Positions 34,111-59,791 of a DNA stretch of 59,791 bases are shown piece after piece; position 1 is the stretch's first letter, and each line of letters opens with the position of its first letter. Source of the DNA: Thermoplasmata archaeon (lineage in GTDB: Archaea; Thermoplasmatota; Thermoplasmata; Lutacidiplasmatales; UBA184). The position numbers were made by a program, and so were the translations under genes. The stretch is from the NCBI GenBank assembly GCA_022749935.1, contig JAKIWQ010000007.1:1-59791 (forward strand), read 5' to 3'. The notes beneath the pieces were generated by a model that saw only the letters and a program-made list of their open reading frames with translations, was not told the DNA's origin and did no database searches.

Positions 34111-37100
34111 TTACCCTTCGTCCGGGGTCTCCGGCGCCGGGAGGTCGTACTCGGACGGCAGCGGGGCCGGTTCCGCCGCGGGCACCGGCTCCGATTCGGC
34201 CCCGGACCCCGGGGGGGGCTCGCGCCGGCGCCCGACCAGCCAGATGACCGCGAGCGCGAGCGCGGCGACCCCGAGGACGAGCGCTCCGGTCTCGAGGGCG
34301 CCCGTGTAGCTTACCTTGGCTTGCGCGACGACCGTCACGGCGAGCGACGCGTTCGCCGAGCGGTGGAACGGGTCGATCACCTCGACCGAGACGGTGTAGG
34401 TGCCGCTCGCGACGTAGACGTGGGTGGTCGTGTTGTCGACCGAGGTGTTGAACACGCCGTCCCCGAAGTTCCACAGGTAGGTGTACCCGGACGACGCGAC
34501 CAGCACCGCCACCTGGGCGTAGAACAACGCAGCCCCCCCGACGAAATCCCCGCTGGTCCCGCCGAGCGTGACGACGGGCGGGATGGGGATGAAGGTCGCG
34601 GAGAGGTTGCCGCTGCCGTTGACGAACAGGTGGGTCCCTCCGACCGCGACGCTGCCGCCGGTCACGAACCCCACGAACTCGCTCGTGAGGCACGGCGTCT
34701 CGGTGAGCGTGTAGTTGCCGTAGGCGAGCCCCACGACCGCCCCGTTCTGGGTCGGGACCCCGTTCAGGTCGACCCTCCCGCACCCGAGGCCATAGATCCC
34801 GACCGCCACCGGGTAGACGACCGGTACGAAGACCGCCGTGACGGTGCTCGGCCCGTTGGGGTCGATGGTGTTGTTCGCGATCTGGACGTAGGGGCTCGAC
34901 TCGAAGTAGGCGAGCTCGTAGTGGGGGCAGGCCGCCCCGGTGATGGTGTAGGTCCGGCCGTTGATGAGGCTCGCGCTCCCTCCGTTGGTGTAGGGGACGC
35001 CGTCGATGACCGCCGACCCGCACGTCGCAGGCACGGTGTCGATGAGGATGGGGACGATCGCCCCGAAGATGGCGATGATCGCGCCCGAGCCGTTCAGCGT
35101 CACCTGGCCGCCGGAGATGTTGATCGCGCCGGTGACCGACCAGGCGACGTTGCCGTACGCGGGACACGGGATGGCCTGGATCGACTCGACCGTCCCTGGG
35201 CTCAAAGTGACGAACGCGCCGTTGATGTAGTCGGTCCCGCCGAGTTCCACCGCTCCGCACCGACCGGGCTCCGTGACGATCCCGACGTAGATGGTCGGGG
35301 TCCCGAGGAGCGACACCACGAGGAGCGCGCCGGAGCCGTTGACCGTGAGGAGCGAGCCCGAGAGCGTGAGACCGCCGGAGGCCGTGAGCCCCTCCAGGTA
35401 GTGGCCGGAGCAGCTGAAGCCGGTGACGGTGTAGGAGGAGTGGTTCGAGACCGGCACGTAGACCCCGTTCGTGTAGGTCGTCCCGTCCAGCACGATCCCC
35501 CCGCACGTGGCGGGGTTCGTGTCGACGTAGACCTCGGTGAGCGCGAAGTTGTTCTCCACGACGGTCCCACCCGCGCCGGAGGCGTCGACGGTGAGGGAGG
35601 TGCCCGACACGGAGACCCCGGTCCCGACGGTGGTGAAGTTGGCCAACCCATAATGCCGGCACGGCGAGGCCGTGAGCGCGTACGCCCCCGGATAGAGGTA
35701 GAGCGACTCGCCGGTGGTGTAGACCGCTCCTCCGAGGGCGACCCCGCCGCAGGCCGCGGGGTTGGTCGCAAACGCGACCGGGGCGGTCGTGGAGGTCGGG
35801 ACGAACGTGGCGGTGAGCGTCCCGTTGCCGATCGCGACCAGGGTGTCTCCGGCGACGCTGACGTTCGCGCTCGGCGTCCATCCCCCGAACGCGTATCCGG
35901 CGCAGAGGACCGTCTGGGCGAGCGCGTGCGAGAGGCCGAAGGAGACGAGGGCGGCCGTCGCATTGGCGTACGGGGTCCCGTCGATCACGACGTTGCCGCA
36001 CGCCGCGGGAGCCACCGTGATGTCCAGGCGCTCGTTCGGGCGGACGTACGTGAAGACGGCGGTGAGATTCCCCGGCCCGGCGACGAGCAGAGTGGCGCTC
36101 TGGGACCCCCCCGCGCGGACGGAGAGGCCGCCGGTCGTCTGCCAGTACGTGAAGTTGAAGGGGTAGCAACCCGACGCGGAGATCGGCACCGGGCCCGGCC
36201 CGATCGAGAACGACGAGCCGTTCGGTCGGGGCGTACCCGCGACCGTGATGGTGCCGCACGTCCCGGGGACGATCCCGAGGTGGACCGTGAACGAAGGGAG
36301 CGGACCCCGGACCACGCGCTCGACCGCGCTCGAGATCACGATGCCCACCGCGTTGGTCGAGTTGACCTGGTAGAGGAGGACCCCGTTCGGGCCGGTGGGG
36401 ATGGTACCCGTGTACGTCGCGCCGGAGGGGCCGCCCACGCCCGTCATCGTGTCGGTGGTCCACGCGCTGCCGTTGGCCGACCAGGCGAGCGTCGTACTCC
36501 CGATCGTCCCGAGATCGGTGACGTTCACCGAGACGTTGACCGCCGTGTTCGGGCTCACGAAGCCCGCGAGGCTCGAGTCGGCGAGCCCGGTCTCGACGAA
36601 CGGGAGGAGGTCCTGGGTCCCCGGGGTGTCGAGGAACTGACGGTACGCGCCTCCCCAACTCGTGACCGTCGCGGGGTAGGTCGTCCCGAAGTCGAGCCCG
36701 GACCGGGTGAGGCTGAAGTAGGGGTAGAAGCCGTCCCCCCCGCTGTTCGTGTACTCGTAGCAGGCCGCGACCGTCACTCCGTTCGGCGGGTTCAGGTTGC
36801 ACACCCCCGACGCGGACTCGGGCAGCAGGTAGTGGTAGTCGCCCCCGTAGGTGGTCGCGTTGTAGTACTCCGGGATCCCCCAGTTCACCGGCGGGAGGGT
36901 CGGGTAGGCCGACCCGTTGTACGCGTCGCACGCGGCGAACGCGGCGCCCCCGGACGGGCAGATGTCGACCCCGACCCCGAGGCCGTACGTCTCGCCCCAC
37001 GTGAGGGAACAGCCGGACGCGCACGAGGTCCCGAACGTGGGTTCGAACGTGTAGTTCCCGGTCGTGTTGGCGTCCAGGTGGACCATCGAGGTGTTGAGGG

Positions 37101-37866
37101 TCCCGCTCGTCTCGTTGACCCACACCCGCATCCCCGTGGTCCCTTGCACCGTCCCGTCAAAGGTGACCACGAGCGGGGTTCCCCCCGTGAGGTTGGAGAA
37201 GAGCGAGATCCCCTGGTTGTTCGCCACGTCGTCGACCTCACAGTAGTACGTGCCGTTCCACGAGAGGTTCATGGTGGACGGCGGGCACCCCACCGGATGG
37301 AACGCCGTCATGTTCTCGAAGGAGAGGACCGCGAGGTGGACGCCCCACGTGAGGTTCCCCGACGAGTTGAGGCCGGGGGTGGCGAGGACTTCGAGGTAGG
37401 ATTGGTTCCACATCGAGTGCGGGTCGCCGGAGACGACCATCCCCACGTAGAGTCCTTGCTCGACCGCCTGTTGCCCCGCCGCCCCCTGGGACGGGAGCGT
37501 CCAGGGGATCGACCAGCGAGCGGCCGATCCGGCGGTTCCCGAGGCGAAGGAGGCGTGGATCTCGTCGACCGCGATGAGATGGCACGGTCCCTGGAAGTTG
37601 AAGTTGGGGTCGAGCGGCCAGACCCCGCCGGGGAGCTGCAAGTAGACCGGATAGCCGTTCGGACACGCGAGCGGCGGCGGGAGGCCCCGGGGAGCGGGGG
37701 TCGCCGTGGGAGCGGCGGGGGTTCCCGAGGTCGGCGTCAGCTCGTTCGGGTGGGCCGGGGAGGCCGAGGAGGTGGCCGCGACGAGGGGCACGGTCCCGAG
37801 GAACGAGAGGACGACCACCAGGGCGACCGCGACCCCCCGGAACCCGCGAATCCGCACGTCCTTCAC
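34111..37866 (-). CDS. Giant surface protein with seven cysteine-pair repeats and PKD domain
   Basis: A 1251-aa secreted, membrane-anchored protein. A signal peptide (about 8-32, GVAVALVVVLSFLGTVPLV) is followed by a Thr/Pro/Ala linker and a large N-terminal domain (about 65-430) with many N-x-S/T sequons. Residues about 527-1095 are seven repeats of about 80 aa, each with CG..(V/L)..(D/G)G..Y.NG and a second Cys about 30 residues later, suggesting one disulfide per repeat. A PKD domain (NFGDG, HVYVASGTYTVSV) precedes a transmembrane helix (about 1195-1215) and an acidic, Pro-rich cytosolic tail. The start is GTG in a GTGA overlap with the small gene upstream. It is the last gene of the AAA+ surface operon. 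Function unknown; adhesion or cell-wall structure is likely. Confidence 0.82.
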   Translation of the reverse strand: MKDVRIRGFRGVAVALVVVLSFLGTVPLVAATSSASPAHPNELTPTSGTPAAPTATPAPRGLPPPLACPNGYPVYLQLPGGVWPLDPNFNFQGPCHLIAVDEIHASFASGTAGSAARWSIPWTLPSQGAAGQQAVEQGLYVGMVVSGDPHSMWNQSYLEVLATPGLNSSGNLTWGVHLAVLSFENMTAFHPVGCPPSTMNLSWNGTYYCEVDDVANNQGISLFSNLTGGTPLVVTFDGTVQGTTGMRVWVNETSGTLNTSMVHLDANTTGNYTFEPTFGTSCASGCSLTWGETYGLGVGVDICPSGGAAFAACDAYNGSAYPTLPPVNWGIPEYYNATTYGGDYHYLLPESASGVCNLNPPNGVTVAACYEYTNSGGDGFYPYFSLTRSGLDFGTTYPATVTSWGGAYRQFLDTPGTQDLLPFVETGLADSSLAGFVSPNTAVNVSVNVTDLGTIGSTTLAWSANGSAWTTDTMTGVGGPSGATYTGTIPTGPNGVLLYQVNSTNAVGIVISSAVERVVRGPLPSFTVHLGIVPGTCGTITVAGTPRPNGSSFSIGPGPVPISASGCYPFNFTYWQTTGGLSVRAGGSQSATLLVAGPGNLTAVFTYVRPNERLDITVAPAACGNVVIDGTPYANATAALVSFGLSHALAQTVLCAGYAFGGWTPSANVSVAGDTLVAIGNGTLTATFVPTSTTAPVAFATNPAACGGVALGGAVYTTGESLYLYPGAYALTASPCRHYGLANFTTVGTGVSVSGTSLTVDASGAGGTVVENNFALTEVYVDTNPATCGGIVLDGTTYTNGVYVPVSNHSSYTVTGFSCSGHYLEGLTASGGLTLSGSLLTVNGSGALLVVSLLGTPTIYVGIVTEPGRCGAVELGGTDYINGAFVTLSPGTVESIQAIPCPAYGNVAWSVTGAINISGGQVTLNGSGAIIAIFGAIVPILIDTVPATCGSAVIDGVPYTNGGSASLINGRTYTITGAACPHYELAYFESSPYVQIANNTIDPNGPSTVTAVFVPVVYPVAVGIYGLGCGRVDLNGVPTQNGAVVGLAYGNYTLTETPCLTSEFVGFVTGGSVAVGGTHLFVNGSGNLSATFIPIPPVVTLGGTSGDFVGGAALFYAQVAVLVASSGYTYLWNFGDGVFNTSVDNTTTHVYVASGTYTVSVEVIDPFHRSANASLAVTVVAQAKVSYTGALETGALVLGVAALALAVIWLVGRRREPPPGSGAESEPVPAAEPAPLPSEYDLPAPETPDEG

Positions 37867-38219
37867 CCCTGGTCCTCGTCGAGGGCCGGCTCGGTCGAGG
37901 CGACCCGGCCCCGCGCGGGCGGGTGGTAGACCTCCACGCCGGGCATCTCCACGACCGGGGTCGGCCGGGGCCGGTGCCGCGCCCGTTCCGCGAGGGTGAG
38001 TCCGGCGATGAAGAGGACGGCCCCGCCGATCGCCGCGAGGTAGGAGAGGAGGACGCCGAACGGCACGCCCCGCCAGGCGGGCATCCAGATCCCGAGGACG
38101 AAGACGGCCGCCCCGATCACCGCGACGCCGAGCCAGGTGGAGGCCGGGACCGCCGACGCGCGGTCCGGCCCCCGACCCCGGGTCGGGTCCACTTCGGGGT
38201 CGCCCTCGTCGCCATCCAT
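37863..38219 (-). CDS. Small two-helix membrane protein in AAA+ surface operon
   Basis: A 118-aa protein with an acidic N-terminus (MDGDEGDPEVDP), two transmembrane helices (about 28-47 and 55-76) and a basic then acidic C-terminal tail with EVYHPPARG. No family is recognised. It starts 4 nt after the AAA+ gene stop and overlaps the start of the 1251-aa giant, so it is locked between the motor and a surface substrate candidate. An adaptor role is a guess from this position. Confidence 0.72.
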   Translation of the reverse strand: MDGDEGDPEVDPTRGRGPDRASAVPASTWLGVAVIGAAVFVLGIWMPAWRGVPFGVLLSYLAAIGGAVLFIAGLTLAERARHRPRPTPVVEMPGVEVYHPPARGRVASTEPALDEDQG

Positions 38220-38223
38220 CGTC

Positions 38224-41200
38224 CTAACCGCGCGTACCGTAGGTGCGGATGAACTCTTGGGCCCAGGTCAAGGTCTCCACCGTGATCGAGCTCTTCGTCC
38301 GTCCGAGCGCCTCGATGAGGTTCGCCATCATGACGCCCTTCACGTCCACCGCCTGGGCGACCGCGGCCGCCGAGCCGGGCGCGGCGTGGATCATGCCGGG
38401 GAGCTCCGTGAGGAGCTGGGTCCGCAGCGCGATGAGCTTGGCCTCGTCCACGAGTCCCGCGATGTCGGCGCCCGAGAACCCCGCGCTCTTCTCCGCCAGC
38501 AGGTCGAAATCGATCGGTCCCTCGACCGGCGTCCCCTTCATGTGGATCTTGAAGATGTCGCGTCGGGCATCCAGGTCCGGCGGCGGCACGTAGAAGATCT
38601 TGTCGAAACGGCCCGGCCGCAAGAGCGCCGGGTCGAGGGTCTGGGGCCGGTTGGTGGTGGCGATGATGATGACCTTGTCCTTCGGGCGCAGGCCGTCCAT
38701 CTCCGTCAGGAACTGGCTCACGGCCCGGGACACCTCGGGGGTCCGCATCGAGTCCTTGGACGCGAGCGCGTCGATCTCGTCGAAGAAGATGATGGACGGC
38801 GCGTTCTCCCGACCCCGGTAGAGGACCTCCCGGATGGCGGCCTCGCTCTGACCGGCCAGCGCGCTCACGAGCTCGGGCCCGCTCACGATCTGCATCGGGA
38901 CGTTCAACTCGTTCGCGGCGGCCCGCATGAGGTGGGTCTTCCCGCACCCGGGCGGGCCGAACAGGAGGATCCCCCGGCCCGTCTTGATCCGGTAGCTCTC
39001 CATGAGCTCCGGACGGGTGAGCGGCAATTCGACGTATTCCCGGATGGCGCTCTTGATGTCCTCGAGCCCTCCGACGTCGTCCCAGCGGACGACGATCTTC
39101 CGCTCGGTCCGCTGCGTCTGGTGCATCTTCCGCTCGTAGTCGAGCTTCATCGTGTCGTAGTCGGCGATCATCCGCAGCGAGATGGACGGCTTCATCCGGG
39201 GCGTGACGGCCCGGAAGTCGTCCATGGAGATGGCGGCGCGGGCGCCGCTCGTCATCTGCCGCCGGACGGCCACGGTGGTCGCTTCCCGGACCAAGTTCGC
39301 GAGGTCGGCGCCGGAGAACCGCTCGGTCTTCCGGGCGATCTCGGCGAGATCGATGTCGCCCTTCACCGGGCGTCCGACCAGGTGGACGTGGAGGATCTCG
39401 GTCCGCTCCTGGAAGTCGGGGGGCGGCACGTAGATGATCTTGTCGAGACGGCCCGGCCGGAGCATCGCCTGGTCGATCAGGTCGGGCTTGTTGGTCGAAC
39501 CGACGACGATGACCCCCGCCGACTTGTCGATCCCGTCCATCTCGGCGAGCAGGATCGAGAGGAGCCGGGGCGTGACGTCGTCCGCGCTGTACATGTCCCG
39601 ACGCTTGGCGATCGCGTCGATCTCATCCATGAAGAGGATGCACGGGGCCCGTTCCCGGGCCGTCCGGAGGAGCTCGGCGATCTTCCCTTCGCTCTCCCCG
39701 TACCACTTCGACATCACGTCCGAGCACTTGATCGAGATCATCTCGACGCCGAGCTCGGTCGCGAGCGCCTTCATGAGCATCGTCTTGCCGCACCCGGGCG
39801 GCCCGAAGAGCAGGATCCCCTTCGGCGGGTCGAGCTTGAACCGGGTCGTGACGTCGCGCCGGAGCAAGGGCACGATCATCGACTCCTTGATGTCGGCCTT
39901 CACGTCGTGGAGCCCACCGACCATGTCGAAGGTGACCTTGGAGAGCCCCTTCATGTCGGCGACGCGGGTCCCGACGTTCGTGCCTCCCAGCCGGGAGGTG
40001 AAGTACGCTTCGAACGCGTCGCGCAGGATGAGCGAGGCGACCACGGTCGTGATCATCGCGGGCACGAGCAGGACGACCGCGATCGACTCCCAGCCGAGGT
40101 AGCCGAAGGCGATCAGGCCACCGACCGTGCCGCCGGCGACGAGCGCGCCGGAGTAGGTCGAGGTCCGAAGCACCTTGTCGGTCGTCAGGTGGGCCCGGTC
40201 CTTCATGATGGACGTGATGAGCCAGATGGCGAGACACCAGACCCCGATCTCGGCGAGCGGGATGGGGAGCGCGCCCAGACCCCCGCCGCCGTTGGCGAGC
40301 TGGGAAAGGTTGGGGTTCAGGACGGAGGCGTACGCCGAGCCGATCGCGTTCGCCGTGAAGAACGGGAGCGGGAGCGTGGGAAGGAGCGGCGCCGAGTGCC
40401 CCGAGACGAGGCTCACGGTACCGTTCCCCCCCGGTCCGGTGAGGTAGCCGAACACCGGGAAGTTCCCGAGCGTGACGAAGAGGCTCACCAGCAGCCCTCC
40501 GGCCACGGCGACGGCGAGGCCGAGGTAGAGCGAGAACACCACCGCGAAGAACACGGGTCCCACGAACGAGAGCCCGAACGGGGCGAGGAGCAGCGTCAGG
40601 AAGACTCCCGCGCCGAACCGCCAGTCGAGCAACGAGGCGAACAGGATGGGGATGGTGGCGAACAGGAAGACGAGGCCGAGCGCCCCGGACTGGTACGCGA
40701 CGGCGGGCGTGATGAACAGGACGAGGATCAGGAGCGAGAGCTGCGGATACTTCCACGCGACCAGCATCACGGCGCCGGCGATGAGGAGGACGAACGGCCA
40801 CGGGTAGAACGGGACGAACGAGCCACCGAGGACCCCGAGGAAGCCGATGAAGAGGACCGGCAGCGTCTTCGGTTCCTTCGTCTCCTTGAGCAACCAGGCC
40901 TCGATCTTGGCGGCGTAGAGCCGTCCGATCGCAAAGAGCACGACGCCGACGCCGATGAGGAAGTAGAACAACCCGTCGTACTGGAGCGCGGGGTACCCTT
41001 GGACGTACTGGGGGGCGATGGCCGCGCCCTGCGGACCGGAAAGCCCCTGGCTCAACGCCCGGTAGCTCGCGTCGGCGGCCGCGTCGAGGGTGAGGTAGGT
41101 GCCGCTGCCGGAGGGGCCCCCGGGCAGCTGGACCGAGACGACCGTGAACGATAGGACCACCGGGGTGTTCGAGCCGATCCAGCTGACCTTCCCCTGGAGG

Positions 41201-41772: not shown

Positions 41773-41830
41773 CGTCACACCGCGTTCTTCGTTCTCGTGC
41801 CCACGTTCACGTTCGTCCTCGCACGGACCC

Positions 41831-43705
41831 TCACAGCGTCACCCGGGTCCGCTCGGCCTCGGCCTTCTTCAGGCGTTCCTTGAACCATCGGAGCAGTGGG
41901 AAGAGCGCGACCGTCACCAGCACGAGTCCGGCGACCAGGCCGACGGTGAGGGAGGAGAGCGGCACGTCGGAGCTGGCCGCGACGGGGCCGTTGGCAAACC
42001 AGAACCGGACCGTGATCGGGTTGGAGGAGACGAGCGACACCTTCGCCGTCTGCATGTGCTCGAGCGCGTGCATCGAGACCGAGTAGGTCCCGAAGGGGAG
42101 CTGGAGGTTCCCGCCGCCGTTCGGGATGACGAGGATGCCGAAGCCGAGGACGCCGGTGACCCCCGACTGGGACCACGACGCGTTCGAGACGGTGAACGAC
42201 GCACCGGTGAGGAGCGTGTCGGTGGTCGCGTTGATCCCCTCGATGTAGAAGAACGACGCGAACGGCGTGAGGGTCGCGGTCGGGGTCCCGGTCTCGACGT
42301 AGGTGTAGTTGCCCGAGGTGAGGGGGTTGTCGAACACGTCCTTGGCGAGGACCGAGAACGTGAGCCGGGCCCCGGCGGGAAGGCCGGGAATGACCACGTA
42401 GGTCGTGTGCTGACCCGCGGGGTGCATCGGGAGGACTCCGGTGACCCCTCCGTAGGCGTCCGCGTAGTGGAACCGGACGATGGAGGAGTCGATCGTGACG
42501 TTGGGCAGGGATTCGGTAACGGTGAGATTGACGGGCGTCGCGGTCGCGAGCGTGGTGGTCGTGGGGGTGAGGACGTTGGGGTTGGCCGAGATGAGCGCGT
42601 TCGACTCGAGGCCCAGCGAGGGCGCGGGCCAGCCGCCGCCCCGGGACCAGTTGAACCAGTAGTCCGGGCTCGTGATCTTGTCGATCGCCCCGTTCTCCCA
42701 CGGGAGCCACGCCGAGATGTTGAACTCGATCGTGGCCCCAGGGTATTGGCCGATCGGGTTCGTGAGGTTCTGGAAGGTGTGATTGCCGGGACCGAAGCTG
42801 ACCCCGTACGTTCCGTTGAGACCGGGGTCGTTGGAGATGATGAAATTGAGCGTCGCGGTCGGGATCGCGGTCCCGGGGAGTCCGCTCGGCGCGAGGCTCT
42901 CCAGCGTCACCCCGAGCGACTGGTTCACGTTCGGGTCGTAGACCGGGCTGCTGAGCACGGACGGGGTCGTCAGGACCGCGATGTCGGAGGCGAACGTCGG
43001 CGACCACCAGGGGGCGTTCATCGTGAACTGCCAGGTCGCGTTCAAGTTGACGCCGGGGATCGGCGGGAGGACCGAGCTCAGCTCGTTCGCCGAGTTGATG
43101 GTGCTCGGGGTCGCCGCCGCCGACTTCAGGGTGACGTTGAAGTAGACGGTCGAGCCCGGGAAGAAGAAGCGGTGGGTGTTGAAGTAGAACGAGGCCTGGT
43201 CCGGGGCACCGGGCGCGATGTACATCGGGAGCGTCGTCACGGTCGTCTGGTCGTACGGGAACCCGGGGAGGTCGGCGAGCGTCACGTGCGGCGTCGGCCA
43301 GAGGGTTCCCCAGACGTTGAGGTACGCCTGCGTGAGCGGAACGTTGGTCGAGATGTTCATCCAAAAGCCCGGCAGGTACGTGGGAAGGTTGTTGTCGCAC
43401 GGGACCGTCTCGAAGTTCGCCCCGGAGAGGTTGGAGTACCCGGGGACGGTGAAGGCGACGAGCGCGTCATCGAAGAAGATGGAGCTCGTCCAGTCGGCCA
43501 GGTTCTGGGGAGTCGGGCACAGGTTGGACGCGGGAGGGTGGGGGGCGGCGGGGGAGGCCGGTCTCGCGAGCGGGGCGGCCACGGCCCCGGCCGCGACGGG
43601 AACGACCCCGGCGTGGGCCGACGGAACGGCGGCGGTCGCGGTGGGGGCGACGAGCGGGACGAGGAGGAAGAGGAGCGCGACGCCGAGGACGAACGACCCC
43701 TTCAC
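41831..43705 (-). CDS. Surface protein, C-terminal anchor, tail ending RVTL (paralogue 1)
   Basis: A 624-aa secreted protein. The signal peptide is FVLGVALLFLLVPLVAPTATA. The ectodomain is beta-rich, with at least fifteen N-x-S/T sequons and paired cysteines near its start (Cys63, Cys103 area). A transmembrane helix (LTVGLVAGLVLVTVALFPLL) is followed by a short basic tail RWFKERLKKAEAERTRVTL. The C-terminal third resembles the next upstream gene product, including PGLPAGARLTFSVLAKD against PGLPVGSGMNFTIEAWD, so the two are tandem paralogues. The start is GTG in a GTGA overlap. The AAA+ gene begins about 58 nt downstream. Function unknown. Confidence 0.8.
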   Translation of the reverse strand: MKGSFVLGVALLFLLVPLVAPTATAAVPSAHAGVVPVAAGAVAAPLARPASPAAPHPPASNLCPTPQNLADWTSSIFFDDALVAFTVPGYSNLSGANFETVPCDNNLPTYLPGFWMNISTNVPLTQAYLNVWGTLWPTPHVTLADLPGFPYDQTTVTTLPMYIAPGAPDQASFYFNTHRFFFPGSTVYFNVTLKSAAATPSTINSANELSSVLPPIPGVNLNATWQFTMNAPWWSPTFASDIAVLTTPSVLSSPVYDPNVNQSLGVTLESLAPSGLPGTAIPTATLNFIISNDPGLNGTYGVSFGPGNHTFQNLTNPIGQYPGATIEFNISAWLPWENGAIDKITSPDYWFNWSRGGGWPAPSLGLESNALISANPNVLTPTTTTLATATPVNLTVTESLPNVTIDSSIVRFHYADAYGGVTGVLPMHPAGQHTTYVVIPGLPAGARLTFSVLAKDVFDNPLTSGNYTYVETGTPTATLTPFASFFYIEGINATTDTLLTGASFTVSNASWSQSGVTGVLGFGILVIPNGGGNLQLPFGTYSVSMHALEHMQTAKVSLVSSNPITVRFWFANGPVAASSDVPLSSLTVGLVAGLVLVTVALFPLLRWFKERLKKAEAERTRVTL

Positions 43706-45684: not shown

Positions 45685-47783
45685 CCCCAGCGGCCGAAGC
45701 TCGTGCTCTTATGAATGGCGTCGGACGCCAGGGCGGCCTTCATCTTACCGGAAAGCGTCGCGATACGGAGGGGTTTGTTCTTCATCCCGATCCGGGTGGC
45801 TCCCGCCGCGATAGCGCCGGCGGCGACGCCCTGGAGCGAGACGTTCGACACGCTCACCGACTGACCGATCCCGATCTGCTGGGGAATGCCGACCGGGGTC
45901 GTGACCGCGATCCCCGGCGGAGGAGGGGCCGCCGGCGGCGGGGACGGCGGGGGCGGCACGTTGAACCCGGTGAGGGCGGTCTCGACCGTGACCTCGGCGA
46001 GGGGGAACGACTGGAGCGCCACGGTCGCGTTGTTGTTGCTGAGATAATCGGCCCACGTGAAGATGCCGGCGAGCGCGCCACTGCCGCCCGCCTTGCAATT
46101 GTCGGTGGTGCAGGCGTCGACCGGCACGACGGCGTACGGCGGGCCGGCCGCCAGGACGTTGAACGACGCGCTCCACGAGTCCCCGACGTACATCACATTG
46201 GTGGAGGAGTTGGTCGACCAGTTCCACGCGAGGTAGGTGAACCCGCCCCGGGTCAGGATGGTCGGCACGGTCTGGCAGGTCGGGAACACGACGCCCACCC
46301 GGATGCAGGAGGCGGTCGCGTTGAGTTCCCCGGTGGGGGCGAGCTGGATCTTCCCGAAGGGGACGAACGTGAACACGGGAGAGCCCGTTCCCTTGGCGAC
46401 CTGACTCACGCTGACCGGACCGAAACCGACCCCCCGCAACGCCTGGAGGAGGTAGGGGTTGGCGGTGTTGGGTTGGTTCGCGAGCCCGTGGGGGACGTAC
46501 TGGAGGCTGCCGGACTGGCCGTTCGGGCACGTGAACCAGGACGGACCGTTCCAGGTCCCGCCGGTCGCCGCCGCGAGGTCGCAGCCGGCGAGCAGGATGT
46601 GGTCGATGTCGGTGATGACCCCGAGGCTCCCCGGCCCCGAGTTCTGTCCCCGGCCCGAGGGCCAGGCCTTGCAGTACGGGTCGGTGATGCAGTTGTTGTA
46701 GTCGATCACGTCGATCGTGCAGGTGTGCCCGATCGAGCCGGTGCACGCGGGCGCCGTCCGGGCGAGGGCCGCGATCGAGTGGGTCTGGTTGCCGTCCTGG
46801 CTCGTGACCCACCCCTCGCACTGGGGCTGGACGCCGTTCGCGAAGATGTAGGCCGGCTCGCACGTGGCGCTGTAGCAGGACGGGCCGGCGCACGTGGTGA
46901 AGAGACCGTACTGGCTCATCGAGATCCGGTAGTTCTCCACGTACGCCGGGTCCTGCGGGGCCGTGGTGCCCATGTAGACGATGACGTGGTGGGTGCTGTT
47001 GGTCCAGCTGAGCCCGCTCCCGATGATCGTCCCGTAGAGGGCCGTGATGGAGGACGAGTCGAGCATGTTGTCGGCCAGGTCGTTGTCTCCGTAGATCCAC
47101 CCACCGCCGAGGACGCTCGCCTGGAAGGTCGCCCGGACGTCGGGTCCGAACGAACTCGCCGGGACGAACTGCTGGATGTCGACGTGGTACTCCGCTCCGT
47201 CCGGGTCGTTCCAGCCGTCGTCGTAGGTGGCGAAGAAGTCGACCAGCGCGAACGAGACCGCGCTGTGGGGATTGGCGGCCTGGATCGCGTTGGCGATCGT
47301 CTGGGAGTTGGCGATGAAGAACGGGACGCCGTTCGATTCCTCGCAGAAGGGGCTGTACTGGGTCGGGTTGGCGGCGCACGGGTCGCTGCCCGGCTCGCCC
47401 GCTGTCGGGTCGCCGGTCCCGGTGTAGGGAGTGGTCTCGATGACGAACGCCACCTGGACGGCCGGCCAAGCGAGCGCCCCGTTGGTGGCCGGGGCCGCGG
47501 TCAGCGTCGTCCGAGCGATCCCGATGCCCGCCGGACAGTTGGTACTGCCCCCGGCGCAGATCGCGGCCGGGATCGTCTGGATCCCGAGTGCGAGGTCGCC
47601 GACGGAGCTCGTGACGGCCGGGGCCGCGGAGGGCGCGGGAGTGACGGCCGCTACAGAACGGGATCCCGTCGCGGGGGGCGACGCCGCGTGCGTCGGCACG
47701 AGGGCGCCGAGCATCGTGAGCCCGACCGCCGCGAGGGCGAGGGCCAGCAGGGCGGTCCGGAGACCGGCGTTCGCCCGGCTCAC
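45681..47783 (-). CDS. Secreted cysteine-rich protein with vWA-like domain
   Basis: A 700-aa exported protein. A signal peptide (TALLALALAAVGLTMLGALV) precedes a Thr/Pro/Ala stretch. Residues about 105-290 look like a divergent von Willebrand A fold: core strand VQVAFVIETTPYTGTG where the MIDAS DxSxS would be, AVSFALVDFFATYDDG, the helix DNDLADNMLDSSSI and strand HHVIVYMGTT. The MIDAS residues are not canonical. The mature protein has 18 cysteines, many closely paired, unusual for an archaeal cytosol and consistent with extracellular disulfides. A Pro-rich segment leads to a C-terminal region without a clear transmembrane helix, so it may be released or held by partners. The start is GTG in a GTGA overlap. 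Confidence 0.72.
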   Translation of the reverse strand: MSRANAGLRTALLALALAAVGLTMLGALVPTHAASPPATGSRSVAAVTPAPSAAPAVTSSVGDLALGIQTIPAAICAGGSTNCPAGIGIARTTLTAAPATNGALAWPAVQVAFVIETTPYTGTGDPTAGEPGSDPCAANPTQYSPFCEESNGVPFFIANSQTIANAIQAANPHSAVSFALVDFFATYDDGWNDPDGAEYHVDIQQFVPASSFGPDVRATFQASVLGGGWIYGDNDLADNMLDSSSITALYGTIIGSGLSWTNSTHHVIVYMGTTAPQDPAYVENYRISMSQYGLFTTCAGPSCYSATCEPAYIFANGVQPQCEGWVTSQDGNQTHSIAALARTAPACTGSIGHTCTIDVIDYNNCITDPYCKAWPSGRGQNSGPGSLGVITDIDHILLAGCDLAAATGGTWNGPSWFTCPNGQSGSLQYVPHGLANQPNTANPYLLQALRGVGFGPVSVSQVAKGTGSPVFTFVPFGKIQLAPTGELNATASCIRVGVVFPTCQTVPTILTRGGFTYLAWNWSTNSSTNVMYVGDSWSASFNVLAAGPPYAVVPVDACTTDNCKAGGSGALAGIFTWADYLSNNNATVALQSFPLAEVTVETALTGFNVPPPPSPPPAAPPPPGIAVTTPVGIPQQIGIGQSVSVSNVSLQGVAAGAIAAGATRIGMKNKPLRIATLSGKMKAALASDAIHKSTSFGRWG

Positions 47784-50700
47784 GGGGCCCCCTTCTTGGG
47801 GCGGCGGCCCGCGAGGGCAACTCCGGCGACGGCCGCACCGATGAGGACGAGCCCGATGGCCCCGTACGACCACGGGGCGAGACCGGCGGCGTGGGCGCCC
47901 GACGAGGAAGGCGAGAGCTGGACGACGAGGGGAGCGTTGGTGAGCCCGGCCGTGACGGTCAGGATCGCCATCTGGTAGCCGGGCGCAGTGACCGTGACCG
48001 TGTAGGTGCCGACGTACGCCGCGAACTGGAATCCGCCGGAGGGGTCGACCGGCCCGGCCTTGGCCAGTTGAGCGCCGTCGATGGCAGCGCCCGAGATGGT
48101 GACGTGAGCGCTGACGACCGCGCTCTGGTTGACCGCGCTCTCGACCGTGACCGAGAGGGTCGCGGGGTTGGGGTAGAGGTTGACCGACCGGACCACTGCG
48201 GCGGACGCCACGTCGACCTCGAAGCTCACCGGAGCGTACATGCCGCCCGCGGTGCCGCCCGCGATGGCTTCGAGCGAGTAGGTGCCGTTGGCGAGGGAGG
48301 CGGAGTAGGTGCCCGCAGCGCCCGTGAGGGCGACGACCGAGGAGCCCGACCAGATCGCGACCCCGGAGATCGGTGCGCCGGTGAGTCCGTCCGTGACGGC
48401 GCCAGAGACGGTCCAACCGAACGGCGCGAGCGAGAGGACGAGCCCCGAGAGGGGCTCGATCAGGACCAGGTTTTGCGCGGCCGGCACGTACCCGGGCGCG
48501 CTGGCCCGGAGGACGTAGGAGCCCGTCGTGACCGCGAGCGAGAACGTGCCACTGGCCCCGGTGGACATCGAGGCCGCCACGGTCTGGCCGTTCCAGAGGG
48601 CGACCGTCGCGCCGGCAATCGGGCCGCCGACGGCGGTACCGATCACGACCTTCCCCGAGACATGCACCGTCGACTCGGTCACGATCGGGGTGAGGGAAAC
48701 GGTCGCGACGGTCTTGGTCGCGCCGCTCACCGCGATCGCGCTCGTGTACCCGTCCAGGTAGTTGGCCAGACTCATCACGAGGTGGTTCCCGCCCGGAGGA
48801 GCGGCCACATGGTACGTCCCCGTGAGGTCCGTGACGCCGGGGACGAGGCAGGGGAGGAGGGTGTCGACCGGGCAGCCGCCGACCGTGACGTTCGCGAGCG
48901 GGAGGCCCGTCGCGTTGTCGACCACGCTACCGGTGAGGATCCCGTACTCGGTGAGGAGGACGAGACCGAGGTCGACCGTCTCTCCGGGCTGGACCGAGAC
49001 GGGCAGGTAGGAGGTGTTGAAATTGACCGCCGAGGTCGCGAGGATGTAGGTGCTCGGCACGACGGGGAGGGAGAACGTTCCGTCGGCCAGCGCGGTGACG
49101 ATGAACGAACACGGTCCGGTCGGCACCCCGCCGATCGGGGAGCAGGCCTTCACCGTCGCGCCCCCGATCGCGAGGCCGATGGGGACCCCGCGGACGGTCC
49201 CCGTGATGACCCCGTCCTCGACCACCTGGATCGCGGGGACCGCCTCCCAGACGTCGGAGTACGCGGTGACGAGCTCCGTGTAGTTCGAGACGAACCCGGT
49301 CGCCTTGACCGAGATCGAGAGTCGGCCCGGCGGGACGTTGGCCCAGTAGCGGCCCGTGGCGTTCGTGATCGTCTGCTCGCACGAGGGGCTATGGGTCGTC
49401 CCGTTCGCACCGGTGCAGATCGTCACCGTCGCCGCCGGGACGGGGAGCCCGCTCGGCTCGGCGATGACCTGGCTCGCGATGACCCCGTTACCGACCAGTC
49501 GGATGAGGGGCGCGACGTACTGCTCGCCCGGTGTGATGTTGAGGGGATGCGTCGTGTTCGACTGGTACGCCGGGAGGTTGATGACGAGGCTGTCGGACGG
49601 CCCGAGCGGCGCGTCGGAGACGAACTCACCGAGGAAGTTGGTCGTCTGGCTGGACGAACCCGAGGGGAGGTTTGGGTTGGCCGTGCTGACGGAGACGGAC
49701 GCCCCGGGAAGCGGCTGGCCGTTCACAGCGTCGATGACCCCACCGACGTACCCCCCGGGCGCCGAGTAGTTGACGTAGAGGCTCTCGACCCATCCCCAGG
49801 GCGGGAGGAGGACCGGCCCGCCGAGGTGGGAGAAGTACGTGTCGAGGTTGGTCGCGTTCCCGATCGGCACCGGCGCGGCAAAGCTCGTGTTGTTGTAGTC
49901 GTTGGACCCGCCGATATTGAAGTCGACGGAGGCCCCCGACGGGGCCGTGATGTTGGCAAAGCCGGCCCCGTTGGTCTCGCCGGTCGTCGAGCCGGAATTC
50001 CCGTTGATGGGGTCGTTGAACTTCGAGGTGACGCCCACGTTCGCGACGGGGAGTCCGGTCTTCGAGTCGACCACGAAAGCGTACCCGTACCCGAACTGGG
50101 TGAGCTCCAGCGGGGGGGCCACGTAGGTCAGGTTCTGGCCGGGGCCAACTCCCAGCGAGGCGTTGACGACCTCGAACCGGGAGAAGTACATCGTCGGGTC
50201 GGTCGCGGTCACGCGGGTCGCGCCGGGGTCGTCCCCACCCGGGACGAACGCCCAGTACTCCCCCCCGCCGTTGCTCGAGACGATGGCCACCCCGTTGACC
50301 GTCCGGCCCGAGGTCTGGACCTGTACCGAGACCCAGCGGGCGGGGTCGGTGCACGACTGGAGTCCGATCGGACCGGTGCAGCTCGCGGCATTGTAGATGA
50401 TCCCGGAGACCCCGACGAAGATCGGGAGCGCCGGACCGGGCGTGAGGTTCGTGAGCCGTTGGGTGTCGTTGAACGTGATGGTGCCGGCGATGAACCCGCC
50501 CGCTGCGCTCACGAACGAGCCGGGGTAGGAGGGGTTGACGAACAGCGTGTCCCCGAAGCCGGGGTAGGTCTGGACCTGGTACGTCCCCGAGCTCGAGTCG
50601 GGCGTGGCTTGCCCGCAAAAGATGGCGCACCCGAGCACGGTCGCCGGGGGAGCGAGAGCGAGGAACACCGGGTTGACGAGCCCGGTCACGTTGACCTCGA

Positions 50701-53563
50701 TGGTCGACCACGGAGCGAGGAGGACCTGCCCGAACACCCAGGGGAGCGGCGTGAGGAGGATCGTACCGATGAAGAAGAGCGGGACGCCGGCCGGCACCGT
50801 GACCAGGATCGTGATCGAGGTGTAGCCGTTCGCCGCGACCGTCAAGTTGTACACCCCGGTCGGCAGGCTCCCGTTGAGGACCCCCCCGGTGTTGGACGAG
50901 TCGAGGAACGGCGTGCAGAGCCCGGAGGAGACCGCACACGCCTGGACTCCGCTCGTCATGACCCCCTTGCCGGTCGAGTTGTCGATCAGCAGCGCGCCGA
51001 CCCACGTCCCCGCGGGGTTCGTGACGGAGAGCGGTCGGTCCCCGTGGGACGGTATGGAACCGCCGACCGGCGCGAGGACGAAATTCGGCACCACGGTGGT
51101 CCCGTTGGTGGAGGCGTTCACCCACGTCCAGTCGGGCATGAAGCCGGGAGCGCTGGCGTAGACCTCGTACGTCGCCCACGGCAGCCAGCCTCCGACCACG
51201 AGCCCCTGGTAGTACCCTTCCGAGGTCGTGAGTCCGCTTCCGAGCTGTTGACGACAGCTCTGGCTGGAGACTCCCTGCGCGATCGTGCAGTAGTCGATCG
51301 AGGCGTCAATGATTGCCGATCCGTTGGTCGCCGTCACCAGTCCTTCCAGGGTAGCGAGCGGCGCGAGCGGTAACGGGGGGGCGACGATCGTTCCCCCTCC
51401 GACGAAGAGCCACTCGGAGTTGGACGCGTATCCGCTCCCGGAACCGTGCAACACGTCCCACCCGAGTGGTGCGGCGAGGACCGAGAAGCCGCCCGACGCG
51501 TTGACCAAGCCCTCCGCGCACGTGGCGAGGGACGTGGGCGAGGCGGGACAGACGGTGACGGACGCGAACGGGACCGGCGCGGTGCCGCCCGCGATGATCA
51601 CGGTGCCGTTGACGGTGGCTTGCGCCGTGAGATTGATGGCGTTGAACGAGGGGATCGTGGCCTGACTGAGGAGGATCGCTCCGAGCTGGGCGCTGCAGCA
51701 GACCCACGGAACCGACAGCTCGGTCGCGTTCGCCGGGAACCCTCCCGCGGAGGCTTGGATGATGTCCGGACCGGGGGGTGCCGGTGCGCAGAAGGCGGTC
51801 GGACCGAACGTCCCACACATGTTCGGGCTGGTGCCCGAGTTGAACGGGTAGGTCGAGAGCGTAGGAGAGATCCGGCTTTGGACCTGAACCGCGAACCCAC
51901 CGGCGGGAGCGGCGCTGGTCCCGGCGACGTAGACGTTCCCTCCGATGTAGCTCCCGGGCGTGAGGTCGACCGAGTACGGCACGACCGTCATTTCGTCCGG
52001 GGTCGCGTTCGCGGCCGTCTCGTTCCCCCACACCGGGAGGTCACCGGGGATGGGCCACTGGGGTCCAAACCCGCAGAGCCCGGTCGTATCGGGGAACACT
52101 TGGATATCGTTGCGAAGCGGGAACGCCGCCGCGATGGTCGTCCCGCCCGGGCCGAGACACCCTCCGTCCAGGCAGTCGGTGACGGTGTTGTTGTAGGTGA
52201 ACGTGACGGGGTTGAACTTGGGGATCCCGACCTCGTAGCCGTCCATCCCGCAGTCTTGGAGCACCCAGAGGCCGAGCCCGAACGCGGGGCTCGGAGACCC
52301 AGAGACGTCGACCTTGACCTCGACGGCTCCCATCGGGACGAGGAAGATCTTGCAGCTGTTCGGCACGCAGAACGGGTTCCCGGGCGACGTGCCCGGTACG
52401 TACCCTATGGGGGACTGGTTCTGGAGGTACCCGACCGCCTGAGCGTCGACGAAGTCGTACCCGGGAGGCCCTTCGGCCTGGACGATGTTCCCGGAGCTCC
52501 CCGGGGGCCCCTGGGTCCCACAGCTCCCCGTGACCGAGGAGCAGACGGTCAGGGAGTTCGGGGTCTGGAAGGCCCCGTTGATCGGAAGGCCGGTCACCGC
52601 GTCGTACAACTTCGCTTCGACGAGCGAGTTCGGCTCGAGGTAGATCTTCCCGAGGTCGGCGTGTCCGCCCGCGGGGACCGAAATGAACGTGAAGTTATTC
52701 TGGAACCCTTGCCCCGGCGCGGTGAAGTCGATGCGGCCCGCGACCCCCGGAGGGATCGGGACGTCGAAGCCGCCGGTCGTGTTGGTCGTGACCCCCGGAT
52801 TCGAGACGATCGAGTAGTCCCGGGATTCCCCCTGGGCGAGCACGCCGGTGATCGCGGGGGTCCCCGCGATATCGGCCAACACCCGGCCGGAGACGGTCCC
52901 ATCCTGGAGGAGGTAGACGGTCCCGAGGGTCACCGTCTGGTTGAGCTGACAGGTCGAGTACGTCTGGTTCTCGGCCCAGAACGACTTCGTGAAAGTGACA
53001 TACGATTTGCCGACCGGGCAGGTCACGTTGACCTCCCCGTTCGAACCGGTCGGCTGGGGGCTGCAGAGGAAGCTCGGGCAGAACTGGCCTCCTTGCTCCG
53101 GGTACGCTTGGACTGTGATGCCGGAGAGGAAGTCGTTGTGGTCGCTCGAATTGGCCACGAACGCGTTGAAGGTGCCCGTGGGGATGTACGGCGACTGAGG
53201 TGAGGGGGTGAGCGGGGCCGCCGCGTGGGGGTGGTGCCAGGCTGCGCTGGCTGCGAGGGATTGGTTGGCGAAACGAACATACTGGGCGTGGTTGAACAAG
53301 TTGGAATAGGGGAGGTTCGCCCCGGTTCCAGGGAGGACCGAAGCGTGGGCGACCGGCGTCACCGGGGTCGCAGCCGGTACGGGGGTGACAGCCGGGGAGG
53401 CGGAGCTCCCGGACGCACCGGTGTGCGGGAACGCGCCCACTGTCGGACCGGGGACCATGAGCAGGGCCACCGCGACCACGAGCACGCCCACCGCGAACGA
53501 GGATTGGCGACCGGCCCTCGGTCCTGCGCGACCGAGTACTCGGGAGACGAGGTCGCGCAGCAT
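47780..53563 (-). CDS. Giant surface protein with carboxypeptidase-regulatory-like repeats
   Basis: A 1927-aa protein, the largest here. The N-terminus is basic, with a signal helix (FAVGVLVVAVALLMVPGP, about 23-42). Most of the ectodomain is a string of beta-sandwich units like carboxypeptidase regulatory (CarboxypepD_reg) domains: G.V......P...A.V..C......C...T...G.Y....PPG......A.GY. At least eight can be picked out between about 640 and 1870, several with a cysteine pair. Sequons are frequent. A C-terminal transmembrane helix (YGAIGLVLIGAAVAGVALAG) ends in a very short basic tail (RRPKKGAP). Such repeats usually form stalks for adhesion. The ATG at 53563 follows the zinc-finger gene stop by 7 nt. 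Confidence 0.82.
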   Translation of the reverse strand: MLRDLVSRVLGRAGPRAGRQSSFAVGVLVVAVALLMVPGPTVGAFPHTGASGSSASPAVTPVPAATPVTPVAHASVLPGTGANLPYSNLFNHAQYVRFANQSLAASAAWHHPHAAAPLTPSPQSPYIPTGTFNAFVANSSDHNDFLSGITVQAYPEQGGQFCPSFLCSPQPTGSNGEVNVTCPVGKSYVTFTKSFWAENQTYSTCQLNQTVTLGTVYLLQDGTVSGRVLADIAGTPAITGVLAQGESRDYSIVSNPGVTTNTTGGFDVPIPPGVAGRIDFTAPGQGFQNNFTFISVPAGGHADLGKIYLEPNSLVEAKLYDAVTGLPINGAFQTPNSLTVCSSVTGSCGTQGPPGSSGNIVQAEGPPGYDFVDAQAVGYLQNQSPIGYVPGTSPGNPFCVPNSCKIFLVPMGAVEVKVDVSGSPSPAFGLGLWVLQDCGMDGYEVGIPKFNPVTFTYNNTVTDCLDGGCLGPGGTTIAAAFPLRNDIQVFPDTTGLCGFGPQWPIPGDLPVWGNETAANATPDEMTVVPYSVDLTPGSYIGGNVYVAGTSAAPAGGFAVQVQSRISPTLSTYPFNSGTSPNMCGTFGPTAFCAPAPPGPDIIQASAGGFPANATELSVPWVCCSAQLGAILLSQATIPSFNAINLTAQATVNGTVIIAGGTAPVPFASVTVCPASPTSLATCAEGLVNASGGFSVLAAPLGWDVLHGSGSGYASNSEWLFVGGGTIVAPPLPLAPLATLEGLVTATNGSAIIDASIDYCTIAQGVSSQSCRQQLGSGLTTSEGYYQGLVVGGWLPWATYEVYASAPGFMPDWTWVNASTNGTTVVPNFVLAPVGGSIPSHGDRPLSVTNPAGTWVGALLIDNSTGKGVMTSGVQACAVSSGLCTPFLDSSNTGGVLNGSLPTGVYNLTVAANGYTSITILVTVPAGVPLFFIGTILLTPLPWVFGQVLLAPWSTIEVNVTGLVNPVFLALAPPATVLGCAIFCGQATPDSSSGTYQVQTYPGFGDTLFVNPSYPGSFVSAAGGFIAGTITFNDTQRLTNLTPGPALPIFVGVSGIIYNAASCTGPIGLQSCTDPARWVSVQVQTSGRTVNGVAIVSSNGGGEYWAFVPGGDDPGATRVTATDPTMYFSRFEVVNASLGVGPGQNLTYVAPPLELTQFGYGYAFVVDSKTGLPVANVGVTSKFNDPINGNSGSTTGETNGAGFANITAPSGASVDFNIGGSNDYNNTSFAAPVPIGNATNLDTYFSHLGGPVLLPPWGWVESLYVNYSAPGGYVGGVIDAVNGQPLPGASVSVSTANPNLPSGSSSQTTNFLGEFVSDAPLGPSDSLVINLPAYQSNTTHPLNITPGEQYVAPLIRLVGNGVIASQVIAEPSGLPVPAATVTICTGANGTTHSPSCEQTITNATGRYWANVPPGRLSISVKATGFVSNYTELVTAYSDVWEAVPAIQVVEDGVITGTVRGVPIGLAIGGATVKACSPIGGVPTGPCSFIVTALADGTFSLPVVPSTYILATSAVNFNTSYLPVSVQPGETVDLGLVLLTEYGILTGSVVDNATGLPLANVTVGGCPVDTLLPCLVPGVTDLTGTYHVAAPPGGNHLVMSLANYLDGYTSAIAVSGATKTVATVSLTPIVTESTVHVSGKVVIGTAVGGPIAGATVALWNGQTVAASMSTGASGTFSLAVTTGSYVLRASAPGYVPAAQNLVLIEPLSGLVLSLAPFGWTVSGAVTDGLTGAPISGVAIWSGSSVVALTGAAGTYSASLANGTYSLEAIAGGTAGGMYAPVSFEVDVASAAVVRSVNLYPNPATLSVTVESAVNQSAVVSAHVTISGAAIDGAQLAKAGPVDPSGGFQFAAYVGTYTVTVTAPGYQMAILTVTAGLTNAPLVVQLSPSSSGAHAAGLAPWSYGAIGLVLIGAAVAGVALAGRRPKKGAP

Positions 53564-53570
53564 CAGGTCC

Positions 53571-53897
53571 TCATACCACCATATTCAGCGTCGCGGCCAA
53601 GAGGTTCGAACGCTCCCGGGGCGCGAGACCGGCGTGGACCTTGGAGAGGTGGACCTCGAGGCTGGTGCGCGTGAGGTAGACCCGGGAGCAGACCGGACAC
53701 GGGAGGTCCGGTGGAGAGTCGAAAAAGCCCGCGCATCCGCACTGGACGACGTGACAGGTCATCGGGTCCGAGTTCCATGGCCGGGAGGTGGGGTGCCGCT
53801 GACGCGAGCCACCGCCTGCGCTCAGATAATGACTCCCCCGGAGGTGCCCGCATCCGCCGCAAGCTCGCAAGCGAAGCAGCTTGCGCTGACCTACCAT
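53571..53897 (-). CDS. Zinc-ribbon/C2H2 zinc-finger protein heading the surface operon
   Basis: A 108-aa cytosolic protein with two metal sites. The first has C13-x2-C16, H18 and H23, then C48, C53 and C55 (RACGGCGHLRGSHYL and CHVVQCGCAGF). The second is a classic C2H2 finger C67-x2-C70-x12-H83-x4-H88 (CPVCSRVYLTRTSLEVHLSK). It may be a DNA-binding regulator of the operon it leads. ATG 53897 is the first in-frame start. The frame upstream is well formed (VSDLFGVGPKK), and a more natural ATG at 53950 is one base out of frame across a run of eight C (plus strand, 53936-53943). The true N-terminus could therefore be longer if the run is miscalled. Confidence 0.78.
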   Translation of the reverse strand: MVGQRKLLRLRACGGCGHLRGSHYLSAGGGSRQRHPTSRPWNSDPMTCHVVQCGCAGFFDSPPDLPCPVCSRVYLTRTSLEVHLSKVHAGLAPRERSNLLAATLNMVV

Positions 53898-58604: not shown

Positions 58605-59791
58605 GAGGATCCTCCGGTCGATTCCTCGGCCGGCGGCGCGCCGCCCCTCCCCCGCCGGAACGCAACGTATCCGACCGCAAGACCGATCACGAGCCCAACG
58701 ACCGCGAGTCCGATCAGGATCGCCGTCGAGTTCGAACCGAGACCGTTATTGGCCGGAGCCGCCGCCGGGACCGGGGCGAACGTCGCCACTTCCGAGATCG
58801 GTGCCGTCACCGTCAGCGTCGTCACTCCCACCGACCCGCTGTACGACCCCGTCCCCGTCCCCGTCCAGCCCACCAGCAGGTAGCCGAGGTTCGGTGTCGC
58901 GTTGAGCGTGACCGTCTTCCCACTCGCCACCCAACCGCTCACCGGCGACACCACCGTCCCACCCTGCGTCCCGTGGACGCTCACGTAGTACGACGGGGTG
59001 AACGCGACCGCCTCGTCCGTCAGGTTCGCCACGACCCGGAGCGACGTCGTCGCTACCGTCGGGACGAACTCCGTCAGGTGGTCGCTCGAAAACACCGTCG
59101 GTACCGTCAGCGAATACGACCCGACCTCGAGTCCCGAGACGTTGATCCACGCCGACGTGGAGGCATACGCCGTCCCGTTGAACGTCAGCATCCACGGAGT
59201 CCCTGCGACCAGACCGCTCCCCGCGTGGAAGTCGACATTGTATGTCGGTAACGGGGGGATGATGATCAGCGCGAACGACGCGACCTCCGTGATCGGTCCC
59301 GACGGCGTCAGCTCGTCATTCAGCGCCGGACCCGTGTAGTTCCCTGCTCCCTCGCCGACCCACCCCGAGAACGCGTAGCCGCTCGCCGGCTGCGCCTCGA
59401 TCCCCGCGGTCGTCCCCTTCGTCACCCACGCCGGCGTCGACTGCGGAACCCCGTTGACCTGCACCGCCGCCGTCCCTCCACCGGTGGTCACCGGGGTCAC
59501 CAGGTACTGCTCGGTGAACGTGAACGTCACCTGCGTGGTACCGGTCGTGCAGATCGACGTCGGGTACCCCGACGGGACGAATCGAATCCCGCTCGTCCCG
59601 TTGAGGTAGGCGGTCGGCACCGCGACCGTGTACGTGCCGGCGGAACCCGCCGAGCACGGATACAGGTTCGGCACCAGCAAGCTCGCGCCCGAGCTCGAGT
59701 ATCCATACCCGTTCAACTGCACCGTCCACCAGACCCCGCTCGAAAGCCCCGTCTCGTTGAACGTCAGGTTGAACCGGGCCACCGGGAGGGC
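58601..59791 (-). CDS. Repeat-bearing surface protein, N-terminus outside the window
   Basis: At least 396 residues. The frame is open to the last base, and the visible N-terminus has no signal peptide, so the gene begins beyond the window; the GTG at 59782 is probably internal. The visible part has two copies of the same module pair seen in the downstream giant: FNETGLSSGVWW followed by WVGEGAGNYTG and GPITEVASF, then SGLVAGTPW followed by WTGTGTGSYSG and APISEVATF. A transmembrane helix (AILIGLAVVGLVIGLAVGYVAF) and a short polar tail end the protein. It is translationally coupled to the BNR giant (ATGA). Confidence 0.8.
   Translation of the reverse strand, partial: ALPVARFNLTFNETGLSSGVWWTVQLNGYGYSSSGASLLVPNLYPCSAGSAGTYTVAVPTAYLNGTSGIRFVPSGYPTSICTTGTTQVTFTFTEQYLVTPVTTGGGTAAVQVNGVPQSTPAWVTKGTTAGIEAQPASGYAFSGWVGEGAGNYTGPALNDELTPSGPITEVASFALIIIPPLPTYNVDFHAGSGLVAGTPWMLTFNGTAYASTSAWINVSGLEVGSYSLTVPTVFSSDHLTEFVPTVATTSLRVVANLTDEAVAFTPSYYVSVHGTQGGTVVSPVSGWVASGKTVTLNATPNLGYLLVGWTGTGTGSYSGSVGVTTLTVTAPISEVATFAPVPAAAPANNGLGSNSTAILIGLAVVGLVIGLAVGYVAFRRGRGGAPPAEESTGGSS

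Follow-up and report, generated by a model that had tools for sequence, protein, structure and literature searches.

Membrane-anchored AAA+ proteins are one point of comparison for the protein described here. FtsH and LonB bear a protease domain, Msp1 has one transmembrane (TM) segment and one AAA domain, and archaea commonly lack FtsH. To our knowledge, none of FtsH, Msp1/ATAD1 and LonB has a domain of about ten membrane helices or dedicated secreted partners, and the extraction and renewal of archaeal surface proteins are largely unknown outside work on LonB and archaeosortase in haloarchaea. Archaeal LonB is membrane anchored (PMC9263693). A different kind of system, the arCOG01314 secretion or membrane-remodelling system, was predicted by Makarova, Galperin and Koonin in 2015 (PMC5898192); it has a MoxR/COG0714 ATPase, DUF4350 as its hallmark, and immunoglobulin (Ig)-like membrane-associated proteins (pfam07760), and it was marked as absent in Thermoplasmata. 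Here we analyze contig JAKIWQ010000007.1 of a Thermoplasmata archaeon (59,791 nucleotides, hereafter the window), in which eight tightly packed minus-strand genes (g1 to g8) include one, g6, for a polytopic membrane protein with two Cdc48-like AAA+ domains, together with genes for surface proteins of two types that we call X (g3) and Y (g4 and g5).

We propose, giving this reading about equal weight for and against, that the locus encodes a dedicated membrane-embedded threading machine that engages the tails of its own surface proteins and extracts, remodels or turns them over. The genes and gene parts that carry the proposal are the following.

45681..47783, minus strand: g3, the X protein, with a signal peptide, a seemingly degenerate vWA-like ectodomain, a proline-rich linker and a C-terminal tail module
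45681..45896, minus strand: the X tail module of g3 (SLQGVAAGAIAAGATRIGMKNKP...SFGRWG), common to X paralogues encoded elsewhere in related genomes
43702..45684, minus strand: g4, a second Y protein, with a C-terminal TM segment and a tail ending KRVTL
43702..43719, minus strand: the KRVTL-stop tail of g4
41831..43705, minus strand: g5, the Y protein, with a signal peptide, an Ig-like ectodomain, a C-terminal TM segment and a cytosolic tail ending RVTL
41831..41845, minus strand: the RVTL-stop tail of g5, from a pattern search of its own genome
38224..41778, minus strand: g6, a polytopic membrane protein of 1184 amino acids (aa) with two Cdc48-like AAA+ domains (Pfam PF00004 twice, AAA_lid_3 twice)
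39919..40881, minus strand: the membrane core of g6, about ten helices, the part of its N-terminal half conserved phylum-wide in the alignment
39424-39816, minus strand: first AAA match of g6
38584-38970, minus strand: second AAA match of g6

The membrane AAA+ protein and its conserved neighbours

At its N terminus g6 opens with a proline-rich region, which is followed by a single hydrophobic segment, an ectodomain, some ten membrane helices and two AAA domains, both of which are closest to VAT/p97/Cdc48 among solved structures. With CDC48/VAT it shares two Cdc48-type AAA+ domains, tandem in this genome, but it scores 525.4 bits against the family model (TIGR01243), under the cut-off of 802.65, and carries a polytopic membrane domain in place of the double-psi barrel N domain: residues 1-610 hold the proline-rich start, ectodomain and membrane helices, and no double-psi barrel is among the 25 best-scoring Pfam families. 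Walker A and B motifs are intact in both rings of g6; unlike CDC48/VAT, it has an aromatic pore loop (KWYG) in the first ring only, and no HbYX proteasome-docking end was found on it, the protein ending in FIRTYGTRG. In an AAA tree with long branches and an arbitrary root, which did not include PAN, the first domains of g6-type proteins group in one clade and their second domains in a different one, and neither clade includes VAT D1 or D2. The genome also encodes a separate tandem VAT/Cdc48 that ends in GIYR (HbYX-like), and g6 is therefore an extra, dedicated paralogue and not the housekeeping copy.

What g6 has in common with FtsH, Msp1/ATAD1 and LonB is a membrane-anchored AAA+ protein with a cytosol-facing aromatic pore loop, for which membrane-protein extraction is the natural parallel. 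It nevertheless falls below the FtsH cut-off (TIGR01241) and contains no M41-type HExxH peptidase motif, and it is polytopic with two AAA+ domains, as opposed to the single TM segment and single AAA+ domain of Msp1/ATAD1. An S16 Lon protease domain is likewise missing from its best-scoring Pfam and NCBIfam families, and a weak lon match over the AAA region reaches 31.9 bits against a cut-off of 608. The membrane core was modeled with a predicted local distance difference test score (pLDDT) of 77.5 and a predicted template-modeling score (pTM) of 0.76; a Foldseek comparison of this model with the PDB gave no hit under E=1, and a sequence search of the PDB returned no match.

The two rings differ in how strictly they are kept. 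Every protein read has G[PA]PGCGKT as Walker A and a WYG pore loop in its first ring (KWYG, or RWYG in one family). The second ring has no aromatic pore loop, and in several families its Walker residues are lost or the ring is absent altogether. We had considered the tandem AAA+ arrangement as a defining feature and rejected it, since other classes have a single or degenerate second ring.

The membrane part of g6 occurs in 50 of 300 genomes of the class, and a profile detects it in 30 of 390 genomes of the phylum. In the closest named records, Thermoplasmata metagenome-assembled genomes such as AcS1-67, the membrane core is up to 85% identical; AcS1-67 has been placed among Ca. Lutacidiplasmatales (PMC9287336), and the window therefore most likely derives from the same order. 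A scan of named genomes used one peptide pattern and hence had limited reach; every record that it found bore Thermoplasmata, Methanomassiliicoccales, Thermoplasmatota or Euryarchaeota in its title.

We compared the neighborhoods of 48 loci (L numbers below; f numbers denote families), calling genes with a codon-score script and then labeling them by profile; some of the profiles were built from the same loci, and the labels are thus descriptive. Directly upstream of the AAA+ gene, on the same strand, lies an X or Y gene in 43 of the 44 loci that have an upstream gene, the lone exception being a 76-aa fragment at a contig end. A small membrane gene follows next downstream in 41 of 45 loci that have a downstream gene; the other four are three loci of family f25 and L108, where an AAA-like piece intervenes. 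This linkage spans many families of Thermoplasmatota. Spacing before the AAA+ gene varies among relatives from overlaps to about 400 nucleotides (nt), near-gapless packing being special to this genome. Conservation of gene order across dozens of genomes excludes chance association. What is conserved is a smaller and older unit than the eight genes.

The same partners travel with the AAA+ gene within the genus. Among the 41 genomes scored for both, X is found in 17 of the 18 AAA+-bearing genomes, Y in 16 and g8 in 17, and each in none of the 23 that lack the AAA+ gene (Fisher p 1e-10 to 1e-9, kinship ignored); in the cases where X, Y or g8 is missing, the AAA+ gene sits at or near a contig end. 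The original prediction, which was made from the letters of the window, had the AAA+ protein dedicated to the surface proteins beside it and would have fallen had the gene mostly occurred elsewhere without them. The linkage in 43 of 44 loci, the co-occurrence within the genus, the separate VAT/Cdc48 and the gene fusion described below all bear it out.

X and Y proteins and their tails

The Y proteins g4 and g5 share about 23% identity, and profile comparison shows their homology with Y proteins from other families (hhalign 99.7%). Their Ig-like label comes from repeats and profile comparison; a Pfam scan of g3, g4 and g5 gave no match. In eleven loci (L054, L055, L057, L058, L107-L109, L111 and L114-L116) the Y profile matches the N terminus of the AAA+ protein itself, with E values of 1e-28 to 1e-49, and these lineages have no separate Y gene. 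We therefore read Y as a subunit of the machine, joined with the AAA+ protein in one physical complex.

In all 14 aligned Y sequences, both paralogues included, the C-terminal membrane segment is followed by basic residues and then by a terminal R-[VI]-T-[LV]. The bodies of these proteins have a mean identity of 26%, as against 66% for the last six residues, and the tail still averages 64% for pairs whose bodies are below 25%. In the 1.79-Mb genome an exact R[VI]TL-stop is confined to g4 and g5; three more hits of the pattern search read SVTL or RMTL. We accordingly discarded the idea that RVTL is a sorting signal used across the genome, g4 and g5 being its sole carriers here.

In X the conserved element is a tail module of about 70 residues, and in this family X paralogues whose genes lie outside the operon carry it too. 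A search with the tail profile hit 15/15 AAA+-bearing genomes from three genera, at 1-7 copies, but 0/10 AAA+-negative genomes and 0/5 AAA+-bearing genomes whose operon has no X. Where other classes are compared, the vWA-type X and a second type of X match only over the C-terminal 38 residues; the tail thus persists on differing ectodomains. Some X paralogues (L155, L156 and L159) have an ordinary membrane anchor at the C terminus and lack the tail module. Directly upstream of X in family f13 lies a membrane protein that reads like a signal peptidase (L065 6857-7852; L069 5993-6985); the L065 protein gave no significant Pfam match.

The ectodomain of g3 had been called vWA-like. That description holds at the level of profiles, through a match to true vWA homologues with an hhalign probability of 98.5% over the N-terminal 96 columns; g3 itself has no Pfam vWA match, and the domain looks degenerate. 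The X protein of L055 matches vWA PF00092 at 8e-12. A model of one X ectodomain is weak (pLDDT 55) and gave no significant match in a fold search, and we claim neither a flavodoxin nor a GATase fold.

These parts invite comparison with the arCOG01314 system, likewise known only by prediction. Both have loci with an AAA+ ATPase, an extracellular vWA protein and small membrane proteins; the anchored Y proteins would correspond to its Ig-like proteins, to go by repeats and profile comparison, though Pfam gives them no match. The counterpart of the secreted vWA protein is X, a true vWA protein in L055 and a degenerate profile relative in the window, whereas the ATPase is of the MoxR/COG0714 type there and Cdc48-like and membrane embedded in g6. 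DUF4350 (PF14258, a flavodoxin-like anchored family) has no match in g3 (E<=1) or in the X proteins of L065 and L068 (E<=0.5).

Other genes of the operon and the window

Four further genes complete the set of eight.

53571..53762, minus strand: g1, a small C2H2 zinc-finger protein of 63 aa, in the nearest relatives only
47780..53563, minus strand: g2, a 1927-aa surface protein with CarboxypepD_reg repeats (Pfam E 7e-53) and a C-terminal TM segment
37863..38219, minus strand: g7, a small two-TM protein, located where the phylum-wide small membrane gene S is located
34111..37866, minus strand: g8, a 1251-aa surface protein with a PKD domain and a C-terminal TM segment, in the same position in near genera

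Gene calls reproduce the nearly gapless layout of the original prediction, with 4-nt GTGA overlaps at 47780, 45681, 43702 and 37863 and gaps of 7 nt between g1 and g2, 4 nt between g6 and g7, and 52 nt (GTG start) or 58 nt (ATG start) between g5 and g6. Hydropathy likewise finds signal-like N-terminal segments on five proteins, as had been reported (g2, g3, g4, g5 and g8), C-terminal anchors on four of these proteins (g2, g4, g5 and g8) and a polytopic N-terminal half in g6, whose tandem AAA+ domains are recovered by Pfam. The idea that all eight genes make up the system did not hold: g1, g2, g7 and g8 are lineage specific, and the tandem AAA+ arrangement is not universal.

The C2H2 match of g1 is weak and under the Pfam cut-off; its likeliest start is the ATG at 53762 (63 aa), because the orthologue of a near relative begins there. 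Orthologues at the same place (L199 4428-4619; L190 near 5954) come from the nearest relatives only. Both g2 and g8 are conserved only in part of the family, and g2 holds this position in near genera alone. In L054, L109 and L111, and by position also in L055 and L113, the gene immediately upstream of X encodes a giant anchored protein with Ig repeats; we rejected a single conserved family of giants, as the repeats are of the CarboxypepD_reg type in family f1 and of the Big_7 type elsewhere.

No Pfam family reaches the cut-off in g7. Its orthology with the phylum-wide small membrane protein S is unsupported, there being no detectable homology between the f1 (g7-type) gene and those of other families. 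The true S orthologue of the genus lies upstream of g2 or elsewhere, in five of seven AAA+-bearing genomes tested and in none of seven AAA+-negative ones; it was looked for in this genome and not found. Its positions are as follows.

S orthologues: L191 6752-7192, L192 7824-8279, L193 2590-3036, L195 1567-2025, L196 5651-6112, L199 3691-4119

Directly upstream of the operon (54102-59791) are two further large surface-type proteins, of which the 1500-aa one matches Flg_new_2 repeats. Elsewhere in the window are a MoxR-type AAA+ gene (PF07726; 9651-10601, minus strand), near which Pfam identified among six genes only one acetyltransferase and one ABC-2 transporter, a tRNA-Gly(gcc) gene (17790-17865) and a 5S rRNA gene (28335-28456).

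Mechanism, alternatives and meaning

The reading as a tail-gripping machine is based on several features taken together: the ring next to the membrane has an intact threading loop, g6 carries neither a protease motif nor an HbYX end, an outer ectodomain is fused or coupled to it, and the proteins linked to it have conserved tails. In the mechanism that we infer, which extends to complex formation in this species, tail recognition by the AAA+ protein, the direction of movement and its biological purpose, g6, the Ig-like Y proteins g4 and g5 and the small membrane protein would form one membrane complex, with ectodomains outside, the polytopic domain in the membrane and the AAA+ ring in the cytosol. 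The threading motor would be the first, membrane-proximal ring with its conserved KWYG loop, and the second ring, lost in many lineages, would be auxiliary. Its clients would be secreted X-type proteins (g3 and, in relatives, also paralogues encoded elsewhere), whose conserved C-terminal tail module the complex may recognize at the membrane before pulling, presumably into the cytosol by analogy with FtsH and Msp1, so that surface proteins would be extracted, remodeled or turned over. The original prediction had allowed for export, assembly, extraction or turnover; this was too broad, as the anatomy favors tail engagement with extraction or remodeling, which is likelier than export.

Several observations weigh against the tail-gripping machine. 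The operon has no X in two genera of this family and in families f2 and f9a, and X is therefore not the sole client; the short hydrophobic stretch of X makes it uncertain which face of the membrane its tail is on. The RVTL tail is confined to families f1 and f2, and Y could act as a client or as a subunit depending on the lineage. The second ring may be more than auxiliary in this genome, where its Walker motifs are kept. All TM and signal calls come from hydropathy only. On a poorly resolved VAT tree, the co-occurrence within the genus amounts to about 4 changes (bootstrap 3-5, at least 1 forced), and the Fisher p values therefore overstate independence.

The main rival, which we consider somewhat unlikely, is a secretion or assembly machine in which the AAA+ complex drives the export or surface assembly of giant repeat proteins and X and Y are envelope parts, much as in the arCOG01314/MoxR case. 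Its parts are of the same kinds as those predicted there (PMC5898192), the marked absence of that system from Thermoplasmata leaves room for a counterpart, and giants do lie directly upstream of X in other classes. However, the secreted parts have N-terminal signal-like segments of their own, and the giants adjoining X are not one homologous family. FtsH and Msp1, which also combine an N-terminal membrane domain with aromatic pore loops, pull their substrates from the membrane into the cytosol and not outwards.

Fusion of Y to the AAA+ protein in several lineages and the restriction of RVTL tails to the operon in this genome would also suit a force generator, in which the motor keeps or switches a permanent envelope complex of adhesin-like vWA and Ig ectodomains without extraction, the X and Y tails being docking sites. 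We think this distinctly improbable, since strict retention of the WYG pore loop speaks for threading and the tailed X paralogues encoded alone elsewhere are more client-like than fixed subunits would be. That ordinary surface-protein genes and a general membrane quality-control AAA+ protein merely share a promoter, with no special link, is hardly credible: surface-protein genes do abound around the locus, as at 54102-59791, but gene order across families and classes, co-occurrence, fusion and tail conservation stand against coincidence, which the phylum-wide linkage largely refutes.

We found no published description of such a system in a literature search that covered few subscription journals, which agrees with the earlier statement that no described system of this composition was known. 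The motor family and membrane AAA+ extractors are already known; their combination with surface proteins is not. If the tail-gripping machine is real, it would arrange a Cdc48 motor in a new way, embedded in the membrane, with an outer ectodomain that is fused in some lineages and with tailed secreted partners, and it offers a short candidate signal, RVTL or the X tail ending GxGRFE. It also suggests the wiring of an AAA+ ring to extracellular vWA- and Ig-type proteins, so far predicted in archaea with MoxR ATPases. Tentatively, the locus could represent a sorting or turnover system for archaeal surface proteins in which a C-terminal tail module is read by a membrane-embedded Cdc48-type motor with outer subunits of its own. 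Such a system would give several classes of Thermoplasmatota a sortase-independent, ATP-driven control of surface retention, built around a membrane domain that matches no solved fold.

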